Origin: JAFGIT01 sp016929465 [NCBI: Candidatus Coatesbacteria bacterium]
GTDB lineage: Bacteria > B130-G9
DNA length: 13,703 bases
Assembly: GCA_016929465.1 (NCBI GenBank)
Contig: JAFGIT010000161.1
Location: 1-13,703, forward strand
Direction of reading: 5' to 3'
The position numbers and the translations under genes were made by a program. The notes beneath the pieces were generated by a model, which was given only the letters and a program-made list of their open reading frames with translations, ran no database searches and was not told the DNA's origin. Below, one piece after another: positions 2,564 to 13,703 of the stretch. Position 1 is the stretch's first letter; each line of letters begins with the position of its first letter.

Positions 2564-3928
2564 TCAGTTCGCGCCCTGGCGGTCGATGATTTTCTTGAAG
2601 GTCTTGAGGATGATCTTGATGTCGAGTGAGAGGCAATGGTTTCGCATGTAATACATGTCATATCGGAGCTTCGCATTGATCGACAAGTCATCCCTGCCGC
2701 TGATCTGTGCAAGTCCTGTTACGCCTGGCTGGGCGTCGAGGACTCGTCTCTGCCATCGCTCGTATTCCGCAACGATTGAGGGTACTTCGGGCCTCGGCCC
2801 TACGAGGCTCATCTCGCCCTTCAATACGTTCACGAGCTGCGGCAACTCGTCGATGCTCGAATATCGCAGGAATTTTCCTATTCGAGTTATCCGCGGGTCA
2901 TTCCTCTCGGTGAGAACCGGGCCGAGCTTGTCGGCATCCTGCACCATCGTCCGGAACTTGTAAATCTTGAAGAGCTTGCCGCCTCTCATAACTCTCGTCT
3001 GAGCGAAAATGATCGGGCCCTTGGAGGAGAGCTTCACGGCGATCGCGGCAAGCAGGAAGATCGGCGAGAGCACGATCAGACTAATTGAGGAGACCACTAC
3101 ATCGAAGATCCGCTTCACGATCTTCTGCTCTCTTCGGATGCGATTCTCGAAGAAACTCATGAGGAGGAGATTGGCGGTATCATCCATCGGGGCCTTTTGA
3201 GTGATAATCTCATAGAAGCTGGGGACAATGCTGTACTCGGTGGATGTCTCGTCACAGATCAAAATGAAGTCCGAGATTGTCGCACGATCGACTGAGGGCA
3301 TCGCGATTACTACTCGATCGACCCGGTGCTCCTTTATGATCTCCCTGATATTCTCTCGCGTCCCGAGAATCTCGAAGCCCGAGACGACGGAGCCGGTCTT
3401 CTCCGGATTGTCATCGACGAATCCGACGATCTCGTGCTTCTTGTCTATCGAATCACGCATCTGGGTCGCTATTCTCGCCCCCGCGTTCCCCGCACCGACT
3501 ATAAGGACGCGCCTGGTCTCCCTGGCTGATTTCAAAAGGAGTCTTGTGTCGATGTATGCCCTCCACGAAAAAAGCAGAATCGCGTCGAGCAAGAAAAATG
3601 CGAGCATAACGTCCTTCGGGAATGAGTGCTCCTCGAAGGCAAACACGTAGGCTATCAAGAGAAGCGTGGAGGCGGCGCAGGCTTTGATCGCGGAGAAGAG
3701 CAGCCGGATCTTGTCCCTCAGAGTCTCAATGTGATACAGGCCGAAGTAGTAGTAGCATAGCAGCGATATTCCAATCGCAAGAAGGCCGACTCGCCAATGA
3801 GTCAAAGCGTCTTTGACTCCGTCGCCAACGCCCTTCGAGAATACGAAACCAAGAAGAAACGCCAAGATGACAAGGAGAAAATCTGCCAGGATTATCTGCC
3901 ACCAGTTCGACTTATTCAGGAGCTTCAT
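2564..3928 (-). CDS. Polyprenyl-phosphate sugar-1-phosphate transferase (EPS initiating PGT)
   Basis: This 454-residue enzyme belongs to the WcaJ/WbaP (exopolysaccharide polyprenyl glycosylphosphotransferase) family. It moves a sugar-1-phosphate from a UDP-sugar to undecaprenyl phosphate on the cytoplasmic face of the inner membrane, the first step of repeat-unit assembly. Domains: four or five membrane helices (about 10-130), a Rossmann-like CoA_binding_3 domain (about 138-245, opening RRVLIVGAGNAG), a membrane-reentrant helix (about 273-300) and the catalytic bacterial sugar transferase domain. Family motifs are intact: KFRTM (324-328), the Asp-Glu pair of DELPQ (360-364), VGPRPE (376-381) and PGVTGLAQ (401-408). 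Length is normal. It is the last gene of the minus-strand block, 27 bases after the preceding glycosyltransferase. The ATG start has only a weak Shine-Dalgarno (AGGGA, somewhat far), so translation may depend on coupling. The exact sugar (Glc, Gal, or a diNAc-type sugar made by the neighbouring dehydratase) cannot be read from the sequence. Confidence 0.93.
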   Translation of the reverse strand: MKLLNKSNWWQIILADFLLVILAFLLGFVFSKGVGDGVKDALTHWRVGLLAIGISLLCYYYFGLYHIETLRDKIRLLFSAIKACAASTLLLIAYVFAFEEHSFPKDVMLAFFLLDAILLFSWRAYIDTRLLLKSARETRRVLIVGAGNAGARIATQMRDSIDKKHEIVGFVDDNPEKTGSVVSGFEILGTRENIREIIKEHRVDRVVIAMPSVDRATISDFILICDETSTEYSIVPSFYEIITQKAPMDDTANLLLMSFFENRIRREQKIVKRIFDVVVSSISLIVLSPIFLLAAIAVKLSSKGPIIFAQTRVMRGGKLFKIYKFRTMVQDADKLGPVLTERNDPRITRIGKFLRYSSIDELPQLVNVLKGEMSLVGPRPEVPSIVAEYERWQRRVLDAQPGVTGLAQISGRDDLSINAKLRYDMYYMRNHCLSLDIKIILKTFKKIIDRQGAN

Positions 3929-3955: not shown

Positions 3956-4639
3956 CTAGCCGATGAGGTTATATTTCAATATGCAATAGATGGCCCTTAT
4001 TCCATCTCGCCAGCCGATCTTCTTGCCCTCGATATAGGTGCGGCCGCTGTATGATATCCCCACTTCAAAGACACGGGCCTTCGCCTTCGCGATTTTCGCC
4101 GTCACTTCCGGCTCGAAACCAAACCTGTCTTCCTTGAGGTCGATGGATTTGATCAGCGAAGCCCGAAACGCCTTGTAGCATGTCTCCATATCGGACAGGT
4201 TCAAGTCGGTGAACATGTTGGACAAAATTGTGAACACGCGATTCCCTAGGTAATGCCAGAAGTATAGAACTCTATGTTCTTCGCTGCCCTTAAAGCGTGA
4301 CCCGAAGACTGCGTCAGCTCTTCCATCGAGTATCGGGCGCAATATCCTATGATATTCGTTGGGATCGTACTCGAGGTCTGCGTCTTGGATGATGATGACG
4401 TCTCCACTTGCGGCCTTTATGCCGTTTCTGACCGCCGCGCCCTTCCCCATATTCCTGTCGTGAAGAATCAGTTTGCCTATGTGATTCTGCATTTGGGGAT
4501 AGATATCCCGTGTGCCATCAGTTGAGAAATCATCTACAACGACGATCTCCTTGTCCATATCAACCGCGAGGACCCTCCTCAGGAGTTCCTCGATCGTATC
4601 CTTTTCGTTATAGACAGGGATAACTACGGATAACCTCAT
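3956..4639 (-). CDS. Family 2 glycosyltransferase, DPM1-like (second of a pair)
   Basis: This is a 227-residue GT-A fold glycosyltransferase of family GT2. It shows the opening [13 protein letters not shown], the nucleotide-binding [11 protein letters not shown] (Asp36-Asp37) and the metal-binding QDADLEYDP (Asp86-Ala-Asp88). The C-terminal stretch [15 protein letters not shown] (about 199-213) is a hallmark of a bacterial subgroup annotated as dolichol/polyprenyl-phosphate mannose synthase-like. There is no C-terminal membrane domain, so it is soluble or peripheral. It may load a sugar onto polyprenyl phosphate or act as a repeat-unit transferase; donor and acceptor are unknown. Its ATG overlaps the stop of the preceding gene in an ATGA (4636-4639), which implies translational coupling. 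GAGG lies only two bases before the ATG, too close to act alone. Confidence 0.88.
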
Positions 4640-5379
4640 CGCCTCTTCAGTCTCCTCAAGCTCTTCAACAAGGCGAGATACCCCATCGAGGTCCTCACCA
4701 ACCTCAATTTACTACTACCATGCTTCCTATCATACCTAAGCGAAAGAGGGATTTCAGCCGCCTTTGCGCCAATCGAGAGAATCTTGATCAAGATTTCCGC
4801 ATTACAGGAGAAGTCGGCTCGAGTGATAAAATGGTCCCCAAAAGTGTCGAGAGCTTCTCTGATGCAGGATGCTCTGTATGCTCTGAAGCCTGATGTGTAA
4901 TCCCTTACGCCCACCGCCGGATAGACTGTGGAGAGAACAACCGCTGCTGCTCTGCTCAGCATTCGCCGATAGAGCGACAGGCCAATCACCTCTCCGCCGC
5001 TTTCGAATCTGGATGCGATTACTACATCGAAGCCCTCGGAGAGTTTGCTGGTGAGAGGCAGGAATAGTTGCGGGGGGTGAGTGTTGTCCGCATCGAGCGT
5101 GCATATCAGGTCACCGTCATCGCATTCGGGAGCGAGTTCTTTGAAACCAGTGAATAGCGCGCTTCCGAGCCCCATATTCCGGGAATGCCTTATCAGATTG
5201 ACGGTGCGATCCTTCGAGCAGTTGCTCATAATGGACGCGGTCTCGTCGGTGCTTCCGTCATCGACAACGGTGATATCGTACTCGAAAGGAGCTTTCTCGA
5301 GCACCGATATGCAGGATGGTATTAGGATAGCGAGGTTCTCTGCCTCGTTAAAGGATGGCAGGAGGAGTCTAAATTTCAA
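4636..5379 (-). CDS. Family 2 glycosyltransferase, DPM1-like (first of a pair, TTG start)
   Basis: This is a 247-residue GT2 enzyme with [12 protein letters not shown] near the start, [10 protein letters not shown] (Asp40-Asp41), the [10 protein letters not shown] segment typical of polyprenyl-phosphate mannose synthase relatives, and the DXD-like LDADNTHPP (Asp96-Asp98). The C-terminus is basic (ends KSLRRLKRR), with no membrane helices, so membrane association would be peripheral. The start codon is TTG. No ATG or GTG lies in frame upstream after the previous stop, the family's N-terminus begins exactly here, and AGGGA lies 8 bases upstream. It follows the dehydratase by 45 bases and overlaps the next GT2 by 4 bases. 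Although both belong to GT2, the two proteins differ clearly in C-terminal motifs and are not a recent duplication. Substrates unknown. Confidence 0.87.
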
Positions 5380-5424: not shown

Positions 5425-7380
5425 TTAGGCTTTCTTCGCTCTTCCGGCGGAGCCCCCCGAACCGGCCTGAATATCTGATGTCTGAACCTTCGGCTTCATG
5501 GACTTGAGCGATAGGGCCTTCAGTTTAGCAATTTGATCGACCGGACCTTCGCCGACATATTCGGGAATCAAGCGGCGCATCATCTTGAAGGTCTCCTGGA
5601 GGTCTCCCTGCTTCGTGGCGTTGATCAGGGCGTCAATCTGCTCTCTCGTCCTGGCCGTATCCCTCTGCTCCCGCGCGGCGACCAAGATGTCCTCATGCTC
5701 CGTGGTTCCGAGATTCTCACCTTCCAGCAGCAATTCCTCGTATAGCTTCTCGCCTGGCCTAAGACCCGTATATACAATTTCTATATCCTCTCCCGGCGTC
5801 AGTCCGGATAACCTTATCAAGTCTCTGGCCAGATCGATTATCCTTATCTGCTCGCCCATCTTGAGAACGAATACTTCACCGCCGTGACCCATGGTTGCGG
5901 CCTCGAGCACGAGCTGAACTGCTTCTGGAATGGTCATGAAGTAACGCGTGACATCCGGATGGGTGACCGTTACTGGGCCGCCTTGACGAATCTGTCTCAT
6001 GAACAGCGGCACGACGCTTCCGGTCGAGCCGAGGACGTTCCCAAAACGAACGGTCATGAAGGCCGTACTGGCCGAATTCACGCAGTCTTGAACGAAGAGC
6101 TCGGCCATGCGCTTCGAAGCACCCATTATGCTAGTCGGATTCACCGCTTTGTCGGTCGATATGAGAACGAAGGAATCCGCGCCGAATTCGATGGCGGCCT
6201 CCGCCAGGATTGAAGTGCCCAGCACGTTATTCTTGAAGGCCTCCATCGGATTGCTCTCCATTAGCGGCACGTGCTTGTGTGCCGCCGCATGGAATATGAC
6301 ATGTGGTCTCGCAGCCTCGAAGACCTTTCTGACTCGCTTCCGATCGCAGATATCGGCAACCATTGTCGCATGCTTGACCGTTGGAACCATCTCGCGTTCG
6401 AGCTCGTAATCAATGGCATATAGGCAGTTCTCCGCCTGCTCGAGGAGTATGAGAACCTCGGGATCGTATTTGGCCACCTGCCGGCAGAGCTCGGAGCCAA
6501 TCGACCCGCCGGCCCCAGTCACAATTATCCTCTTGTTGCCGATTGAGCTTAGGATGCGCTCGGTGCTCAACTGGATTGGAGGCCTGCGCAGAAGGTCTTC
6601 GACCTGCACATCTCGGATCTGGTTTACCGAGACCATTCCCTTTATTATGTCTCCAAGTGGAGGCAGTGTTCGGAACTTGACGTTCTCCTCCTTGCATACG
6701 TCAATGATACGTCTTACCTGCGCGCCGCTCGCCTTGGGCATTGCGATGATGACTTCCTCAACTCCGCTGTCAGCAGAGACTTCCCCTATCTCACCTATCG
6801 TCCCCAAGACGGGAACGCCGTGGATCCTGGTGCCGACGAGGTCTGGGTCCTCGGTGATCAATCCGACGGGCTCTAGTCCAACTGACGGGCTATTGAATAT
6901 CTCCCGGGTCAGCATCTCGGCCGGGTCCCCGTCACCCACGATGAGCACCTTCCGCATTGACTTGGGCTGTTGAAGGACAATCAGACGGTAGCCTCTAGCG
7001 AGGAACCGAACTGCGCCAACTGCGAATATCGTGAGCAGCCAGTCGATTATATAAACGGGAACCGGGCAAGTTTCGAGATCATATATCAGAACGACCGCGA
7101 CTATTGAAAGCACGGTTGCCATGCATGTGGCTCTTATGACAATCAGAAGGTCAACCATACTCGCATAGCGCCATATACCTTTGTAGCATCCTGACAGGTA
7201 GTAGGAGAGCATCTTGATTGCTAGAACAATGAGAATCGTCTCCCTGAAGAGCTGGGCTCTACTCTCAGGTAGGGGGAACTCGAACTTCAAATAGAAGGCC
7301 AAGAGGTAGCAGCCCAAAACTGCTAACGCGTCGGCGAACATCAGTAGAAGTCGCTTCTCTCGCGACGTTAGATCACGCAT
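5425..7380 (-). CDS. Membrane nucleotide-sugar 4,6-dehydratase, WbpM/CapD/PglF type
   Basis: This 651-residue protein has the full architecture of the large WbpM/PglF family. It has four N-terminal membrane helices (about 11-130), a CoA_binding_3-like Rossmann domain (about 143-250, opening RKVLIVGDGD) and a C-terminal extended SDR domain (about 280-600). The NAD(P)-binding motif TGAGGSIGSE is at 288-297. The catalytic region is STDKAVNP (408-415) followed by Met419-x-x-x-Lys423. Met replaces the usual SDR Tyr of YxxxK, as is known for WbpM-type enzymes. Family members convert UDP-GlcNAc to its 4-keto-6-deoxy derivative, feeding QuiNAc/FucNAc/bacillosamine-type sugars into surface glycans. 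The ATG at 7380 has AAGGA 7 bases and GAGGG directly upstream. It sits between the single-domain regulator and the glycosyltransferases. Its middle domain is related to that of the PGT at 2564-3928. UDP-GlcNAc as substrate is inferred from the family. Confidence 0.92.
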   Translation of the reverse strand: MRDLTSREKRLLLMFADALAVLGCYLLAFYLKFEFPLPESRAQLFRETILIVLAIKMLSYYLSGCYKGIWRYASMVDLLIVIRATCMATVLSIVAVVLIYDLETCPVPVYIIDWLLTIFAVGAVRFLARGYRLIVLQQPKSMRKVLIVGDGDPAEMLTREIFNSPSVGLEPVGLITEDPDLVGTRIHGVPVLGTIGEIGEVSADSGVEEVIIAMPKASGAQVRRIIDVCKEENVKFRTLPPLGDIIKGMVSVNQIRDVQVEDLLRRPPIQLSTERILSSIGNKRIIVTGAGGSIGSELCRQVAKYDPEVLILLEQAENCLYAIDYELEREMVPTVKHATMVADICDRKRVRKVFEAARPHVIFHAAAHKHVPLMESNPMEAFKNNVLGTSILAEAAIEFGADSFVLISTDKAVNPTSIMGASKRMAELFVQDCVNSASTAFMTVRFGNVLGSTGSVVPLFMRQIRQGGPVTVTHPDVTRYFMTIPEAVQLVLEAATMGHGGEVFVLKMGEQIRIIDLARDLIRLSGLTPGEDIEIVYTGLRPGEKLYEELLLEGENLGTTEHEDILVAAREQRDTARTREQIDALINATKQGDLQETFKMMRRLIPEYVGEGPVDQIAKLKALSLKSMKPKVQTSDIQAGSGGSAGRAKKA

Positions 7381-7441: not shown

Positions 7442-7819
7442 CTACACACTCTGCGGCGCCAGCATCTTGAGGATGCTCTGAACCTCCGAAATTCGGAATG
7501 GCTTCACCATAACCGAATTGGCTCCGTATTTGAGAGCCTTTTCAACCATTTCGCGATTCGCGGCCGCGGTCATAATGATTACGATAACCCCCGGATACAC
7601 GGATTTGATCATTTTGATGGCCTCGCATCCGTCCAAGACGGGCATATAGAGATCCATGAAGACGACGTCATACTCCTTGCTCCGCGCCATCTCGAGCCCC
7701 TGCTGACCATCGCAGGCAACATCGACCTTGTACTTGCGCTTCGGCAAGGCATCAACTATCACATCGCATATCGCCTGCTCGTCATCAACCACCAGGACAT
7801 TGTAGATCTTATTCTTCAT
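7442..7819 (-). CDS. Single-domain response regulator (CheY-like receiver)
   Basis: This is a 125-residue stand-alone receiver domain with all conserved residues: the acidic pair Asp12-Asp13 (VVDDEQ), phosphoacceptor Asp56 (FMDLYMP), Thr84 (MTAAA) and Lys106-Pro107 (MVKPF). No output domain follows. Such proteins act by docking on partners or as phosphorelay intermediates. The frame is open further upstream to a TTG at 7837, but the ATG at 7819 is preferred because GAGGA sits 5 bases before it and the receiver fold begins there. Gaps of 62 and 61 bases separate it from the tyrosine kinase before and the dehydratase after, so it is very likely co-transcribed. No histidine kinase is visible in the window. 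Its placement suggests control of polysaccharide assembly or a read-out of it (inference). Confidence 0.9.
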   Translation of the reverse strand: MKNKIYNVLVVDDEQAICDVIVDALPKRKYKVDVACDGQQGLEMARSKEYDVVFMDLYMPVLDGCEAIKMIKSVYPGVIVIIMTAAANREMVEKALKYGANSVMVKPFRISEVQSILKMLAPQSV

Positions 7820-7824
7820 ATCAA

Positions 7825-7829
7825 TCCTC
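7825..7829 (-). promoter_or_regulatory. Ribosome binding site deciding the receiver start
   Basis: On the minus strand this reads GAGGA, 5 bases before the ATG at 7819. The alternative TTG at 7837 has no comparable site. Confidence 0.7.
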
Positions 7830-7881
7830 GCCCTCAAATATACGAATCAGGTCAATGAGCATTCTCAAATCCGCGAGCCTA

Positions 7882-8886
7882 CTACATGCGCCTTGAATAA
7901 GCATATACTCTATAGAACGGCTTATGCATATCGACCTCATTCAGGATTGCACCGAGAATTCGGCATCCGACGTTCTCCAGCATCTGAACGGCGACCCCGG
8001 TCTGCTGGCGAGAGGTGCGATCTGCCCTCACCACGATCAATGCATCCCCGAGTATTGTCCCGATCACCACAGCATCAGTCAGGCCAATAATGGGTGGTGC
8101 ATCGGCGAGAAGCACATCGAATTGCCCCGCCAAATCAGTCAACAGGTCTCGAACCGTTGAGGATGACAACAGCTCCGCCGGATTCGGCAGAAGCGGGCCG
8201 CTTGGGAGCAAATGCAGCCTATCGAACACAGTATGGCTAATTGCCATATTGGGCTCAATTCCGTCGAATACGATGCTGGATAGCCCAACAGAATTGTCGA
8301 TACCCAGAAAGCTATGAAGGACCGGATTTCTCAGGTCCATATCCACCAACAACGTCCTTTTTCCGGCATTCGCCATTGCGATGCCGAGATTCGTTGCAGT
8401 GGTGGATTTGCCCTCCTGCGGCGATGCGCTTGTCAAGAAGAGGCTGTTGATGCCGCCCTGATTCATGCGGACAAGCAGATTCGTTCGTAAGGTCCTGAAC
8501 GATTCGACGACGACATCATCGCTGGCAAAGAACTTGACACGCTCGAACATCTTCGCTTCATCGGCGCCCTTGGCAAGGCGCAATGAGTGCTTGCGTTTGG
8601 CGGACTCCAATAGAACAGTCTCTTCTGCCGAGAAGACACCTGTTCCCTCTCTTATGTCCAGCATACATCCGAGCTTCTCGAGCTCCTGTTTTGCTGATTG
8701 AGCTGAATCGAAGTTCATTCTGCGGAATGAGAATGGCGGATTATCAACTGCGACCTGAATGTCTTGTCGTGCGGCCCCCTTGCAGAACCTGGCCAGTTTC
8801 TCTATGATCGCATTCTTGTCGGCTTCAGGAGAGATGTTATTGACACATACCATGTAGTTATCGAGAGAAGTGGATTTCTTCATCAT
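7882..8886 (-). CDS. BY-kinase (CpsD/CapB-type tyrosine autokinase) with extra N-terminal domain
   Basis: This 334-residue cytoplasmic P-loop kinase is expected to autophosphorylate on C-terminal tyrosines and, with the Wzz-like partner, regulate polymer length and export. Visible motifs: the oligomerisation motif EX2RX2R (Glu128, Arg131, Arg134 in ESFRTLRTN), Walker A SPQEGKST (155-162), Walker A' VDMDLRNP (181-188), Walker B VLLADAPP (258-265), and a short tyrosine cluster at the very end (Tyr325, Tyr328, Tyr330). Unusually, about 110 residues precede the kinase core. Residues about 10-80 look like the ribosomal L7/L12 C-terminal fold: a beta strand, a helix with paired Lys/Glu, a VDNPPF turn, then a helix rich in Ala/Glu/Lys and an LG-x-x-LDI strand. 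Start: the first of two consecutive ATGs (8886 or 8883), with GGAG 6 bases upstream. It overlaps the Wzz gene stop by 4 bases, so the two are coupled and act as a CpsC/CpsD-like pair. Confidence 0.9.
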   Translation of the reverse strand: MMKKSTSLDNYMVCVNNISPEADKNAIIEKLARFCKGAARQDIQVAVDNPPFSFRRMNFDSAQSAKQELEKLGCMLDIREGTGVFSAEETVLLESAKRKHSLRLAKGADEAKMFERVKFFASDDVVVESFRTLRTNLLVRMNQGGINSLFLTSASPQEGKSTTATNLGIAMANAGKRTLLVDMDLRNPVLHSFLGIDNSVGLSSIVFDGIEPNMAISHTVFDRLHLLPSGPLLPNPAELLSSSTVRDLLTDLAGQFDVLLADAPPIIGLTDAVVIGTILGDALIVVRADRTSRQQTGVAVQMLENVGCRILGAILNEVDMHKPFYRVYAYSRRM

Positions 8887-10304
8887 TTGTCTCTCCGCTG
8901 CTTTCTGTGACCGGATGATATATCGGCGAAGCCCAATATCGCTTCCGTGCCCGGCTCAAACCTGGGTATCATCCCGATGACCCACAACCCGAGATGCTTC
9001 TCGATATCCTCTGGAGTCTTATATGTCATCTCCAGGTAGTCAATTAAGAAAGCAAGTCCTACACCGATCATAAGGCCAATTATCGACGCGACCACGAGCT
9101 TGAGTGCCATTTTCTGAGCAACTGGCTTTGCGGGCACAACGGCCGGCTCGACTACGCTCATTCTTCGCCTGCTGACGCCGCTTTCGACCGCACTCTTCTT
9201 TCGCCGCTCTACTAGCAGGTCATATAGCTCCCGGGAAGATGTTACTTCTCTCTCGAGGATTGAATACTGAAGCTCCAAGGCGTTGAGCTTCTGCACATCT
9301 TCCTTGTATTCCGAAAGCGTCTTCTCGAGAGACTCCTCGCTAGCCATCAGACTCTGAACCTTAGTCCGCTGTGTATTGACAATGTCCTGCTCCAGGCTGG
9401 CTAGCTGAGAATTCAGTAGCCTTATCTTCTCCTTAAGCTCGACGATGACCGGATGCTTGGGCTTGAAAATGCCCTCTTTTTCTCCCAGCTCGGCCTTGAG
9501 CTCGTCAATCTGTGACTTCAGCGACGTAACCTCGGTGGAACCATAGCTTGCAAACGTGGGAACAGCCGCAACCGGCCCTTTCTTCAGGGCCTCCTCCAGC
9601 GCTTGGAGAGCGATTTCCGCGTTTATCCTCTCTAACCGAACCTGGAGATGGTTCCCTGAGGATGTATTTACTTTCAGCGCCAATTCCTGCTTGCGCTCGT
9701 CGAGACCGATGATCCCATTCTCGAGTTTGAAGTCCTGAAATTTCTTCTCTGCATTCTTGACCTTCTCGCGCATGTCAGAGAGCTGTTCCCCGAACCAATC
9801 AATCCAGGTATTAGCCTCATTCAGTTCACGTCTGCGGGTCTCTTCTATATATGTGCGGCTTACGGCATTTGCGATCTTGGCTGCCTCAGGTGCCGAAATT
9901 GACTCTGCAGCTATTGATACTAGAGTCGCACTCTTATTGAAGCTTATCCTGATTTGTGATCTCAATGATGCTATTCGCGCAATCCTCTCGTTCTCAGAAA
10001 TTGAGTCGAAGTATGGATCCGAAGTCCGAAGAACAGAACTCATCACTGGCCGGCTTTTCAGCAGAGCCTCCTCGACTTCCGGATCGACTGACTGCTTTGA
10101 ATATCCGGTCTCATCTATTATTGCCTGGCCCTGCTCGATCAAAATGGTCGAACTTGCCTCATAAACGGGTTCTTCTCTCAGAAGGACTATCAATGCAGGA
10201 ACAAATACGACTGCAAGCGCGATGAGGACTAGCCAGTATTTCTGACGTATAACGGCCAGATACTGCCTGAGATTGATCTCCTGAGTGTCATCTCGTTCGG
10301 TCAT
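8883..10304 (-). CDS. Wzz/GumC-type polysaccharide co-polymerase (chain-length determinant)
   Basis: This is a 473-residue inner-membrane protein with a Wzz domain at the N-terminus (INLRQYLAVIRQKYW), a first membrane helix at about 24-42, a long periplasmic part with strong coiled-coil character (about 160-370), and a GNVR-like segment (around SSRELYDLLVERRKKS). A proline-rich run into the second membrane helix (about 401-422) and a short cytoplasmic tail follow. The tail carries no P-loop kinase domain, which is instead encoded by the next, overlapping gene. In this class the protein sets polymer length and spans the periplasm toward the OPX protein, whose gene lies 22 bases upstream. The ATG is preceded by GGAGG 4 bases away, a strong but slightly close site. 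Length and topology match GumC/EpsB-like members. Confidence 0.92.
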   Translation of the reverse strand: MTERDDTQEINLRQYLAVIRQKYWLVLIALAVVFVPALIVLLREEPVYEASSTILIEQGQAIIDETGYSKQSVDPEVEEALLKSRPVMSSVLRTSDPYFDSISENERIARIASLRSQIRISFNKSATLVSIAAESISAPEAAKIANAVSRTYIEETRRRELNEANTWIDWFGEQLSDMREKVKNAEKKFQDFKLENGIIGLDERKQELALKVNTSSGNHLQVRLERINAEIALQALEEALKKGPVAAVPTFASYGSTEVTSLKSQIDELKAELGEKEGIFKPKHPVIVELKEKIRLLNSQLASLEQDIVNTQRTKVQSLMASEESLEKTLSEYKEDVQKLNALELQYSILEREVTSSRELYDLLVERRKKSAVESGVSRRRMSVVEPAVVPAKPVAQKMALKLVVASIIGLMIGVGLAFLIDYLEMTYKTPEDIEKHLGLWVIGMIPRFEPGTEAILGFADISSGHRKQRRDK

Positions 10305-10326: not shown

Positions 10327-11322
10327 CTAAAATAGCGAGCGAGGGACATGGACGACATCGCCGGGCTGAAGCGGTATATCAGCGCTCTGGTCGCCGCCCT
10401 CTATGATTTCATTGATGTTGACCTTGAGAGTGATAACGCCGCCCTCTGTGGTTCTCTTGATCTGGACCCTTGATTTGGCGGCTTCCTCAGTGAAATTGCC
10501 AGCCTTCAAAATAGCCCTGAGCACGGTCAGCCCCTTGGTGTAGGGGACGATGCCCGGATTCTTTACTTCGCCAAATACGAGGACATTCCCGCGCTCCAAT
10601 CCGGAGAATTCGGCGGCCTGTTCACCCGACAGAACATATATTATGTCCCCAGTTAAGACGGGGACATTCAGGTCGCCCTTCGGATCACTCATCAGGTCCA
10701 GTAGGTTGACAGTATATTTCGCTGTTTCCGGGGCCTGCCCGATATCTGTTGCGGATTCGGGAAGGCGTATAAGGAATACGGTCTTATTGAAGCCGTTCGT
10801 GGGACCACCAGACCTGACTATAATGTCCTTAAGAGTCTCAGTCTCGGCCTGAAGATAGTAGGTCCCGGCTCCCACCATTTCGCCGACGATTGTTATCGGA
10901 TGACTCTTCCTGTTCTTCAGCGTCACGAAGACCTCGGGCGAGACCAAATAGTCCTTACCCAGGAGCATCTCCACCTCACGGGCAAAGCCGGAGATTGTCA
11001 ATCCAGATGCCCTGACCTCATTGACCATCGGCAACATCACCGTCCCCTGGGGAAGCACGGTGACGTCCACTGTCTGGCGATAGCCGCCTTTTCCGCTGAT
11101 TACGACAGTGAGCTCATCCTTGGGGCCGAGCTTGTAGGTCTTGTCAGAGGTGTCAGTATTTATCGGAGCTGCAACCATCACCGGTGGGGAGAATGTGGCG
11201 GATGGCGCGACAAATTCCTCCTCAGCTGGTTCGATTTCAGGGGGCCTGTGCTGGCAGCATATTGTGCATAAAAGAGCCAATAACCCCAAAAACACTGCGA
11301 TATATGCAGCTATCCTATCCAC
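10327..11322 (-). CDS. Short OPX (Wza-like) polysaccharide export protein
   Basis: This 331-residue protein has a hydrophobic N-terminal signal, then a Poly_export (PES) domain (starting near YKLGPKDELTV) and two SLBB domains (ITIVGEMVGAGTYYL and NVLVFGEVKNPGIVPY). It ends at QPGDVVHVPRSLF. It would form the periplasmic part of the polysaccharide exporter, meeting Wzz/GumC. Cysteines 19, 22 and 23 lie at the end of the signal, but none has a canonical lipobox before it, so lipidation is uncertain. The protein stops right after the SLBB region and lacks the C-terminal amphipathic helix by which E. coli Wza crosses the outer membrane. The adjacent beta-barrel may fill that role. Start: GTG at 11322 is chosen because AAGGAG lies 7 bases before it. 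A GTG six codons upstream (11340) is in frame but has no Shine-Dalgarno. Confidence 0.9.
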   Translation of the reverse strand: MDRIAAYIAVFLGLLALLCTICCQHRPPEIEPAEEEFVAPSATFSPPVMVAAPINTDTSDKTYKLGPKDELTVVISGKGGYRQTVDVTVLPQGTVMLPMVNEVRASGLTISGFAREVEMLLGKDYLVSPEVFVTLKNRKSHPITIVGEMVGAGTYYLQAETETLKDIIVRSGGPTNGFNKTVFLIRLPESATDIGQAPETAKYTVNLLDLMSDPKGDLNVPVLTGDIIYVLSGEQAAEFSGLERGNVLVFGEVKNPGIVPYTKGLTVLRAILKAGNFTEEAAKSRVQIKRTTEGGVITLKVNINEIIEGGDQSADIPLQPGDVVHVPRSLF

Positions 11323-11329
11323 ATTGCTG

Positions 11330-11335
11330 CTCCTT
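11330..11335 (-). promoter_or_regulatory. Ribosome binding site deciding the OPX start
   Basis: AAGGAG on the minus strand lies 7 bases before the GTG at 11320-11322. The alternative GTG at 11338-11340 overlaps this region and has no site of its own. An ATG also follows the site but is out of frame and stops after four codons. Confidence 0.6.
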
Positions 11336-11364
11336 TTCACTAAAGGTTCTGCCAGTCAGCGAGA

Positions 11365-12576
11365 TCATCTCGAAAGCTCATATTCGAAGCAGACAGAAGC
11401 ATGTACAAGTTCATTATCATACTCGTATGTTTGTATTGTCGAGTCAACTTTCGCAAAAGTATAGCCTGCTCTCAAAGAAAGCCACTTGAGAAACCTGTAG
11501 CCGGCCGTCGCGGACAAACGATACACATAATCACGGCGGTCGTTGCCTCTCTCATACCTTCTGCGCTGGACCCGCCCATCCAAAAAGGTCTCTACGCGGT
11601 CCAGGAAAATATGCCTTATTGATGTCCTAACGGTCGTTGTAAGATAATATTCACCGGCATACTCCTCACTCGACCAATATCCAGAGTCCGCCGCAAGAAG
11701 AGCGCGGGTGTTCCGACCCAAGTCCCTACTTATGCTCAACGAGCCAGTGAAACTTGACCGCTTGCAGTCTCTTGAATCATCCTCGAGATCATTTCTGTGC
11801 TTGAGCTCTGTGGTAACGAAGCCAGCCTCGGCCCGAACGACCGTGTCCAGTCCTCTGAGATCTCTATTCACATAGCCTCTTGCGGAATACTCAAACCTGT
11901 CATCGCTCGAATCGGATGTCTCGTAGTCGATTAGTCCCCAATCACCAATTATCCCAACCTGGGTCGAATGGCCAAGATTCGCCCCAACGCTCCCGAGCGC
12001 AAAATTCTCTTCTCTGTTACGGTATTCTTCCTCCTCTTTACGATGCCATTTTACCGATGTTCGATGGCCCAGCATAAAGACCAGCCTACGTCCCGGCCTG
12101 AATTCGAGCTTTTCCGAGGCACTGTTCTCAAAACGCCTTGAGTCAAGATACGGATTGTCAGACCACGACTGAGTGCCAACATCGGAATCGCTCAGACTAT
12201 CCTCCAAGAACAGAGATAGATTATCAGTGATATACAGCTCACCGCCAAACGCTCCGACATGCGTCCTATAGGAGGTGTGCTTGCGCCCTGAGACATAATA
12301 CGTACGATAGGACGGGGTGTAGAGTAGCCTGAAATCGCCGATTCCAGCAGTATAATCAAGCTCTATCTCCGGCGAGTATCTAGCGACATAGCCCTCATTT
12401 ACCGTGTAGTCAGCCTCTTCCTTCTCCTCGTCGCTCAAGAGAAGCGGATTGCGTTCGTATTCGCCCGTGACTTCGAGGCTCGTCCTCAGAGTAAATGCCC
12501 CTTTGGCCAAGATCGGAAGACCTAGCAAGAAAGATGCAAGTGAGAAGGCAGCAAGTATGTTGGATTTAAAACGCAT
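11365..12576 (-). CDS. Outer-membrane beta-barrel protein of the polysaccharide export locus
   Basis: This 403-residue protein has a clear signal peptide (RFKSNILAAF, then a hydrophobic stretch; cleavage likely near residue 24-27). The rest is built of alternating polar/hydrophobic strands rich in Tyr, Arg, Asp and Glu, with a last strand LVHASVCFEYELS, which together look like an outer-membrane beta-barrel. It resembles the putative porin families (BBP2-like) commonly found in exopolysaccharide loci; that assignment is by overall look, not a motif. It sits 42 bases upstream of the OPX gene. The combination resembles the OPX/Wzp beta-barrel arrangement described for Myxococcus xanthus, where a separate barrel carries polymer across the outer membrane. 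Start: ATG at 12576 with GGAG 5 bases upstream. The frame extends to a GTG at 12681, but the extra 35 residues precede the signal peptide and have no ribosome binding site. Confidence 0.8.
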   Translation of the reverse strand: MRFKSNILAAFSLASFLLGLPILAKGAFTLRTSLEVTGEYERNPLLLSDEEKEEADYTVNEGYVARYSPEIELDYTAGIGDFRLLYTPSYRTYYVSGRKHTSYRTHVGAFGGELYITDNLSLFLEDSLSDSDVGTQSWSDNPYLDSRRFENSASEKLEFRPGRRLVFMLGHRTSVKWHRKEEEEYRNREENFALGSVGANLGHSTQVGIIGDWGLIDYETSDSSDDRFEYSARGYVNRDLRGLDTVVRAEAGFVTTELKHRNDLEDDSRDCKRSSFTGSLSISRDLGRNTRALLAADSGYWSSEEYAGEYYLTTTVRTSIRHIFLDRVETFLDGRVQRRRYERGNDRRDYVYRLSATAGYRFLKWLSLRAGYTFAKVDSTIQTYEYDNELVHASVCFEYELSR

Positions 12577-12823: not shown

Positions 12824-13703
12824 TCAGATTTCCAGATCTGAGTTCTCTCGGTATTTCTCCCTGGTGCCCCGATGCCCAAATGAGAATGTGCGATACGAAA
12901 ACGCCCCACTGGAATCTGCATCAGCAGACTTTGATATGTGAATGCCACGTGCCTTGAGGGCCGCAATCAGTCGCTTGATCACATATTGCCCCGAATCGTT
13001 ATTGGTCTCCGGCAACATGATAAGGACCCATGGATGTCTATAGGCCACCAGGTCGGAATTCCTGAGATTGGGAGTGAAGATGCGCAAGATCATCTTCGCC
13101 AGCTCTGTGTCTTGAGTCAACCCAAACTCCGCCCTGGCCTGAGTAAGGTCGTTGAGATCTACCTTTATGAGCGTTAAAGCACGTAAATACCGAATGGCTC
13201 TATCGATCTCCTCCTTGACTCTGACCGCGAAATACGCGGCCGTTTTGCACCCGTACTCCTGGTCCTGAACCTGCGATGTCGGATCGGCTTCTTCCCAGAC
13301 TTTCTCCAGAAAGGCGCGAGCCTCTCGGACAGCGGAGTCCCAACTTGCGCCGGACGGTTCGGGGGCCTTTTCCACTACCGGCGGTTTCTCCCGCTTGGCG
13401 GCCATCTCCTCGCGCATCCTGAGGCCCACATCGATCAATGAGAGCAGCTCGCGATACGAATAGGGCTTCTTAAGAAGGCTGTCGAAGACATCTCCGGGGT
13501 ATTGCTCTCTTAGCGCATACGGGCTGCTGCCTGTGACGAGAATGGAGTATGTACCATGACCGAGGGCTTTTACCTTAGTGATGAGCTCGACGCCATTCAT
13601 TGCGGGCATCGAGAAGTCTGTGAGAAGAAGATCGCATCCCTCCTCCTCGATGAACTTGAGCGCCTGCCGCGGGGAAACGAAGGTCCTTATATCACACTCG
13701 GAC
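12824..13703 (-). CDS. Response regulator with receiver and degenerate GGDEF domain (5' end outside window)
   Basis: The frame stays open to the right edge, so the true start is outside. At least 292 residues are present. Reading upstream of the internal Met at 13609 gives LLLTDFSMPAMNGVEL, whose Asp (codon 13616-13618) is the receiver phosphoacceptor. Thr (LVTGS) and Lys (LLKKPY) complete the active site. The receiver's first strands, including the acidic pair, lie outside. A linker rich in Lys/Glu/Pro follows. The C-terminal part aligns with diguanylate cyclases: an IDRAIRYLRALTLIKVDL segment, then NSDLVAYRHPWVLIMLPET, which matches the typical SDLVARYGGDEFVVLLPET but has the GGDEF signature replaced by HPW (YRHPWV encoded at 13025-13042), and an FSYRTFSFG strand. 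Without the signature residues it should not make cyclic di-GMP; no RxxD inhibitory site is obvious at the usual place. It probably acts as a phosphorylation-controlled binding module, upstream of the export genes. Confidence 0.85.
   Translation of the reverse strand, partial: SECDIRTFVSPRQALKFIEEEGCDLLLTDFSMPAMNGVELITKVKALGHGTYSILVTGSSPYALREQYPGDVFDSLLKKPYSYRELLSLIDVGLRMREEMAAKREKPPVVEKAPEPSGASWDSAVREARAFLEKVWEEADPTSQVQDQEYGCKTAAYFAVRVKEEIDRAIRYLRALTLIKVDLNDLTQARAEFGLTQDTELAKMILRIFTPNLRNSDLVAYRHPWVLIMLPETNNDSGQYVIKRLIAALKARGIHISKSADADSSGAFSYRTFSFGHRGTREKYRENSDLEI

Follow-up and report, generated by a model that had tools for sequence, protein, structure and literature searches.

The window analyzed here, the whole stretch of 13,703 bp, derives from a fragmented draft genome of a Candidatus Coatesbacteria bacterium that is 86% complete. 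Its minus strand carries one operon-like cluster which extends from a REC-GGDEF gene through the gene of a phosphoglycosyl transferase (Table 1). Two neighbouring genes of this cluster, encoding a polysaccharide export protein of the OPX family and a putative outer-membrane beta-barrel, are the subject of this study. Both ORFs were found where an earlier note on this DNA had placed them.

Table 1. Features identified in the window, with positions, strand and the basis of each assignment
Feature	Position	Strand	Basis or remark
REC + degenerate GGDEF protein, truncated by the window end	12824..13703	(-)	conserved upstream neighbour; GGDEF Pfam match below cut-off
Putative outer-membrane beta-barrel (Wzp/EpsX-like partner porin), 403 aa, signal peptide and probable 18-strand barrel	11365..12576	(-)	PF10082, by-eye strand layout, low-confidence AF2 model, weak Foldseek matches
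OPX protein, Poly_export + 2 SLBB, without C-terminal helix	10327..11340	(-)	D1-D2-D2 type, Class 3
Cys29 of OPX, candidate lipidation site	11254..11256	(-)	invariant in 4 homologues
Poly_export (PES) domain, D1 of OPX	10918..11148	(-)	Pfam
Second SLBB domain of OPX	10345..10584	(-)	Pfam; 5 residues remain to the protein end
PCP (Wzz/GNVR), chain-length determinant homologue	8883..10304	(-)	Pfam, NCBIfam
BY-kinase-like ATPase with N-terminal extension of ~118 aa	7882..8886	(-)	TIGR01007 above cut-off
Single-domain response regulator, conserved in the cluster	7442..7837	(-)	Pfam and cluster comparison
Membrane NDP-sugar 4,6-dehydratase family protein	5425..7380	(-)	Pfam, NCBIfam
Glycosyltransferase family 2	4636..5379	(-)	Pfam
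Glycosyltransferase family 2, closest NCBIfam model AglJ (below cut-off)	3956..4639	(-)	Pfam, NCBIfam
Large phosphoglycosyl transferase (initiating enzyme)	2564..3928	(-)	PF02397 E=4.7e-68; TIGR03025 above cut-off

The genes around the OPX are closely spaced. Between barrel and OPX there are 24 bases (42 if a later OPX start is used) and between OPX and PCP 22 bases, while the PCP and kinase genes overlap by 4. The best NCBIfam match of the PCP was TIGR03007 with 176.4 bits, compared with a cut-off of 278.85. The N-terminal extension of the kinase (8533-8886, minus strand) had no credible Pfam match. Neither a flippase nor a polymerase gene was recognised within the window. On other contigs of the same genome, 13 Wzy_C (O-antigen ligase/polymerase) and 4 Polysacc_synt matches were present, and a pathway of the Wzx/Wzy type is a guess. 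With 3.2 Mb in total, the genome contains these 13 Wzy_C matches versus one OPX match. Facing the cluster, a plus-strand gene (313-2511) encodes a protein of 732 aa with two-component-regulator propeller repeats (Reg_prop, Pfam).

The Pfam search of the OPX protein placed PF02563 at residues 65-141 (E=1.4e-15) and SLBB_2 in two stretches (E=3e-15), the best of which spans residues 253-332 of 337. Wza_C was absent among the Pfam matches of the protein. Additionally, the OPX homologues of all four genomes of the phylum share VPRS[LI]F as their common C-terminal end. A profile of these homologues matched the E. coli Wza chain (2j58) from residue 65 to residue 323 of 359, so that its last 36 residues, presumably the region of the membrane helix, have no counterpart in the OPX. 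The D1 and SLBB domains are shared with Wza, whereas the C-terminal helix D4 of Wza is missing.

Since the C-terminal Wza_C helix is missing, the OPX was ruled out as a member of Class 1 (Wza). Judged by Pfam, it fits Class 3 of Saidi et al. (Poly_export-SLBB(1-7) only, without Wza_C or GfcC), a scheme for which these authors used HHpred too. The best sequence match among solved structures was 9n9a_A (E=4.4e-14), which the Foldseek listing names as the class-3 OPX WzaB of M. xanthus. With the predicted model of the window OPX (mean pLDDT 60.3, pTM 0.38), Foldseek put Wza chains first.

For the N-terminus an alternative start was found. The GTG at 11322 is preceded by AAAAGGAG and is on this ground the likelier start than 11340, resulting in a protein of 331 instead of 337 aa. 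In the alignment, the residues ahead of Cys29 read LLCTIC in the window protein and ALG or TCG in the relatives. By the lipobox rule the former is an atypical and poor lipobox, and Cys29 is regarded as a candidate for lipidation. A linker of approximately 35 residues leads from Cys29 to D1, and the excess length of the OPX comes partly from this N-terminal linker. With 331-337 aa the protein exceeds the empirical limit of 280 aa for short OPX proteins in the survey of Schwabe et al., which focused on fully sequenced genomes (PMC9601211), and consequently lies outside that survey set.

In the source genome PF02563, BBP2_2 and a search with the window OPX gave a single match each. A second OPX was thus not detected in this genome (86% complete), nor was there a match to PF18412 (Wza_C), for which E. 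coli alone among 14 control genomes was positive, as expected of the control. The best NCBIfam match of the OPX was the XrtA-type model TIGR03027 (123.8 bits, cut-off 180). As both OPX and PCP had XrtA-type matches, an exosortase-associated EPS system was considered. It was rejected, since no PF09721 match was found at E<=0.01 in the source genome (86% complete); in the control genomes PF09721 matched in M. jannaschii only. Exosortase (PEP-CTERM) EPS clusters differ in this respect from the cluster described here, even though the barrels EpsL and TIGR03016 of such clusters showed a weak C-terminal similarity to the window barrel, far below the NCBIfam cut-off.

The N-terminus of the barrel protein is hydrophobic and reads by eye as a signal peptide. 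PF10082 (BBP2_2) matched only the C-terminal residues 311-397 (E=1.5e-9), and a barrel profile found no sequence relative among solved structures up to E=1. On the amphipathic pattern of the protein 18 strands were placed by hand. In this layout 9 long links (6-20 residues) alternate with 8 short ones (2-4 residues), and the 122 inward positions include 23 K/R and 23 D/E. The mean inside/outside hydrophobicity alternation was 2.27 compared to 1.29 +/- 0.22 (maximum 2.10) for identical windows on 2000 shuffles of the sequence; picking the strand limits by eye biases this comparison in favour of the 18-strand layout. Five of the 18 strands (4, 8, 9, 11 and 17) were below the shuffled mean. The outcome of an automatic peak count varied with its input: the window barrel on its own yielded 20, the set of four phylum members 19, and a set of 13 barrels (those shorter than 475 aa among 19 described below) 17; with this range, the number of 18 is a reading rather than a measurement.

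For the barrel, AF2 with an alignment of three sequences gave a model of low confidence (mean pLDDT 43.8, pTM 0.40). It contained 16 strand segments on 15 of the 18 hand-placed positions. Strands 7-17 were clear and strands 5, 6 and 18 were missing, and by itself this model would not prove 18 strands. Foldseek ranked maltoporins, which are 18-stranded, first (E=1e-4, TM 0.44) and AlgE 20th (E=6.8e-3), ranks that lend weak support because of the low-confidence model. AlgE is 18-stranded as well (PMC9601211). We read the protein as a barrel of probably about 18 strands.

The earlier note had described an OPX that ends right after its second SLBB domain without a Wza-type helix, and next to it a signal-bearing, strand-rich protein of about 400 residues. 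Both descriptions are borne out by the five residues left behind the SLBB fold, the lack of Wza_C among the matches and the shared VPRS[LI]F end on the one hand, and by the length, the by-eye signal peptide, the PF10082 match and the strand layout on the other. The structure prediction which the note had proposed as a check put strands at 15 of the 18 positions, but remained a weak check due to the low confidence of the model.

An 18-stranded barrel next to an OPX gene could also be a surface anchor. Wzi is likewise 18-stranded, Wzi homologues are located near OPX genes of all classes (PMC9603273), and Wzi is required for anchoring but not for synthesis or export (PMC9601211). According to such a reading the window barrel would bind already exported polymer instead of forming the pore. 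We consider this improbable. The by-eye end of the signal peptide is followed by strand 1 after only about 5 residues, so the barrel has no helical plug domain, and the Wzi family was absent among its Pfam matches at E<=0.1. Furthermore, some pore would still be needed, since the window OPX is helix-less and no other OPX was detected in the genome (86% complete).

The pair was then compared within the phylum, for which the relatives include two MAGs (Candidatus Coatesbacteria bacterium and 'bacterium isolate AUK292'). All four genomes examined contained an OPX, with one PF02563 match each. The barrel adjoins the OPX in each of them and is consistently located between the REC-GGDEF gene and the OPX gene. 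Two long relatives (L031 and L032) keep the order of the cluster, as does the short contig L049 up to its end; only for the first glycosyltransferase no match was found in L031.

A barrel-led pattern scan of genome contigs confirmed 2 loci out of 39 pattern matches, and a barrel-only profile matched in 20 of 386 genomes. One locus per matched genome was examined, the window's own being left out, which gave 19 loci. A barrel ORF was present in 18 of these and an OPX in 12, each time directly downstream and on the same strand; outside the phylum this arrangement was found in 9 of 16 loci. The seven loci without OPX comprise three full stretches of 17 kb and four shorter contigs, one of which also lacked the barrel ORF, and the OPX profile used for the 19 loci is narrow, so that a distant OPX can escape it. 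Five of the six barrels without OPX are at least 495 aa long. These BBP2_2-like barrels of 495-600 aa (L037, L040, L043, L044 and L047), for which an OPX was not found in the examined stretch, may on account of their length represent a longer BBP2_2 subfamily with a different role.

The linkage was also counted for the Pfam families as such. PF10082 was present in 53 and PF02563 in 249 of 376 genomes. At least 32 of 62 BBP2_2 genes were located less than 5 kb from an OPX gene, compared to 0.44 expected under uniform random placement, an expectation that ignores the clustering of envelope genes. Among the matches listed, all 32 BBP2_2-OPX pairs were on the same strand and 27 had the order barrel-then-OPX. 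The other 30 BBP2_2 genes had no OPX within 5 kb among the matches listed. Five of them are pairs known from the other locus searches and seven belong to genomes without any OPX match, while for the remaining 18 no nearby OPX was present among the matches listed.

These many BBP2_2 genes without a nearby OPX among the matches listed would suit a general porin, or one for sugar uptake, that is linked to the export genes by the shared operon alone, and the closest folds of the weak barrel model, maltoporin and CymA, are both uptake channels. Such a likeness is generic for large barrels, however, and was obtained with a low-confidence model. The position of the barrel between REC-GGDEF and OPX in 4 of 4 genomes and the direct OPX adjacency that recurs in distant lineages make an uptake function highly unlikely.

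Work on M. xanthus published in 2022 proposed composite translocons of an OPX and a barrel, supported the proposal by experiments and reported such translocons to be widespread (PMC9601211); the same class was likewise described in PMC9603273 (2022). The proposal is based on EpsX and EpsY, which interact in pull-down experiments and stabilise each other (PMC9601211). This pair (WzpX/WzaX; PMC9601211, PMC9603273) shares with the window a helix-less OPX gene adjoining a barrel gene within a polysaccharide cluster. EpsY is a D1-D2 protein of 217 aa (PMC9601211), whereas the window OPX of 331-337 aa has an extra SLBB domain and the linker of ~35 residues. The NCBIfam EpsY model reached 72 bits with a cut-off of 320. 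EpsX and the window barrel are likened by gene position. VpsN/VpsM of Vibrio cholerae, a short OPX with coupled barrel, is comparable by description (PMC9601211).

Closer in domain composition are the D1D2D2 proteins coupled to barrels, a make-up found in the five OPX of more than 250 aa modelled by Schwabe et al. (PMC9601211). They have the same Poly_export and two beta-grasp/SLBB domains, no helix and a barrel as neighbour; the window OPX is longer than these and stems from a fragmented draft genome. In total, Schwabe et al. reported coupled short-OPX/barrel pairs in 10 phyla and 453 OPX proteins of up to 280 aa with a coupled barrel and without a helix, and 93% of the barrels occurred with an OPX inside the 280-aa limit and 7% with a longer one (PMC9601211).

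The same survey gives room to an OPX that crosses the outer membrane unaided by a barrel, or to one that acts as the ring of a pore whose gene lies elsewhere. Of 1,230 OPX proteins of up to 280 aa, 777 lacked a coupled barrel, and a C-terminal helix was present in 535 of these (PMC9601211), and the remaining 242, a difference computed here from these figures, have neither barrel nor helix. For the window this is hardly to be expected: the barrel is an immediate and conserved neighbour, and the OPX stops at the SLBB fold without any spare segment.

We therefore consider it very probable that OPX and barrel form the part of a polysaccharide export machine that sits at the outer membrane, with the barrel as pore. 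Synthesis of the polymer would begin with the phosphoglycosyl transferase of the cluster, and PCP and tyrosine kinase would control its lengthening. A lipid on Cys29 would anchor the OPX in the inner leaflet of the outer membrane, and its D1-D2-D2 domains would form a periplasmic ring above the PCP/kinase complex, an octamer by analogy with Wza. Because the OPX has no membrane helix, the neighbouring barrel, folded with probably 18 strands, is proposed to supply the pore in place of the helix pore of Wza. In analogy with EpsX/EpsY, the ring would contact the barrel and guide the polymer from the PCP/kinase complex into it and on to the surface.

The pairing of helix-less M. xanthus OPX proteins with separate barrels, to which the earlier note refers, corresponds to the proposed EpsX/EpsY translocon (PMC9601211). 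Two further points that it had named for checking also turned out in its favour, as the genes are adjacent in 4 of 4 phylum genomes and the search for a helix-bearing OPX found neither Wza_C nor a second OPX in the genome (86% complete). Its description of the pair as an example of this export route stands, while the wording 'independent, possibly divergent' is weakened by the pairs published from 10 phyla, D1D2D2 proteins included (PMC9601211), and by WzaB as the best structure match. The evidence supports that the pair fits the known composite OPX/barrel translocon, and it adds little beyond the published examples, since the route including D1-D2-D2 OPX proteins is already described (PMC9601211). 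Modestly new are the lineage, the counted tie between BBP2_2 and OPX and the two response regulators residing in the cluster. The literature records searched for PF10082, BBP2_2 or 'beta-barrel porin 2' contained nothing on PF10082, and 'PF10082' and 'BBP2' are absent from the main text of PMC9601211 and PMC9603273. For Coatesbacteria and polysaccharide, the records found offered nothing beyond each word occurring once.

The single-domain response regulator was present in 4 of 4 phylum genomes. Its receiver aspartate, threonine and lysine are kept, which we take to be the motif of a working receiver. In the three genomes whose contigs extend that far, the initiating transferase shares the cluster with this regulator. 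EpsW of M. xanthus, likewise a single-domain regulator, stimulates the transferase EpsZ (PMC12802240), and by analogy the regulator described here may be a non-myxobacterial case of this type of control. In all four genomes the REC-GGDEF gene immediately precedes the barrel gene. All 4 sequences have other residues in place of the GGDEF signature, and the Pfam match to GGDEF was below the cut-off, for which reasons the protein is probably not a cyclase.

A wider reading, which we put forward as speculative and rather unlikely in full, would join these observations. BBP2_2, named in Pfam as putative beta-barrel porin 2 without a function, would at heart serve helix-less OPX proteins of different phyla as their general partner in the outer membrane. 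In the present lineage the translocon would be genetically locked to two response regulators, of which the phosphorylatable single-domain one would act as a switch on the initiating transferase, in the manner of EpsW on EpsZ, while the REC/degenerate GGDEF one beside the barrel would gate export. If true, phospho-signals would control the pathway at its start as well as at its exit.

The pair of the window leaves the current understanding of polysaccharide exit from the cell unchanged. With it, the OPX/barrel export route reaches into a sparsely sampled phylum, represented by four genomes with one detectable OPX each, and the Pfam family BBP2_2, so far named only as a putative porin, gains a working context.
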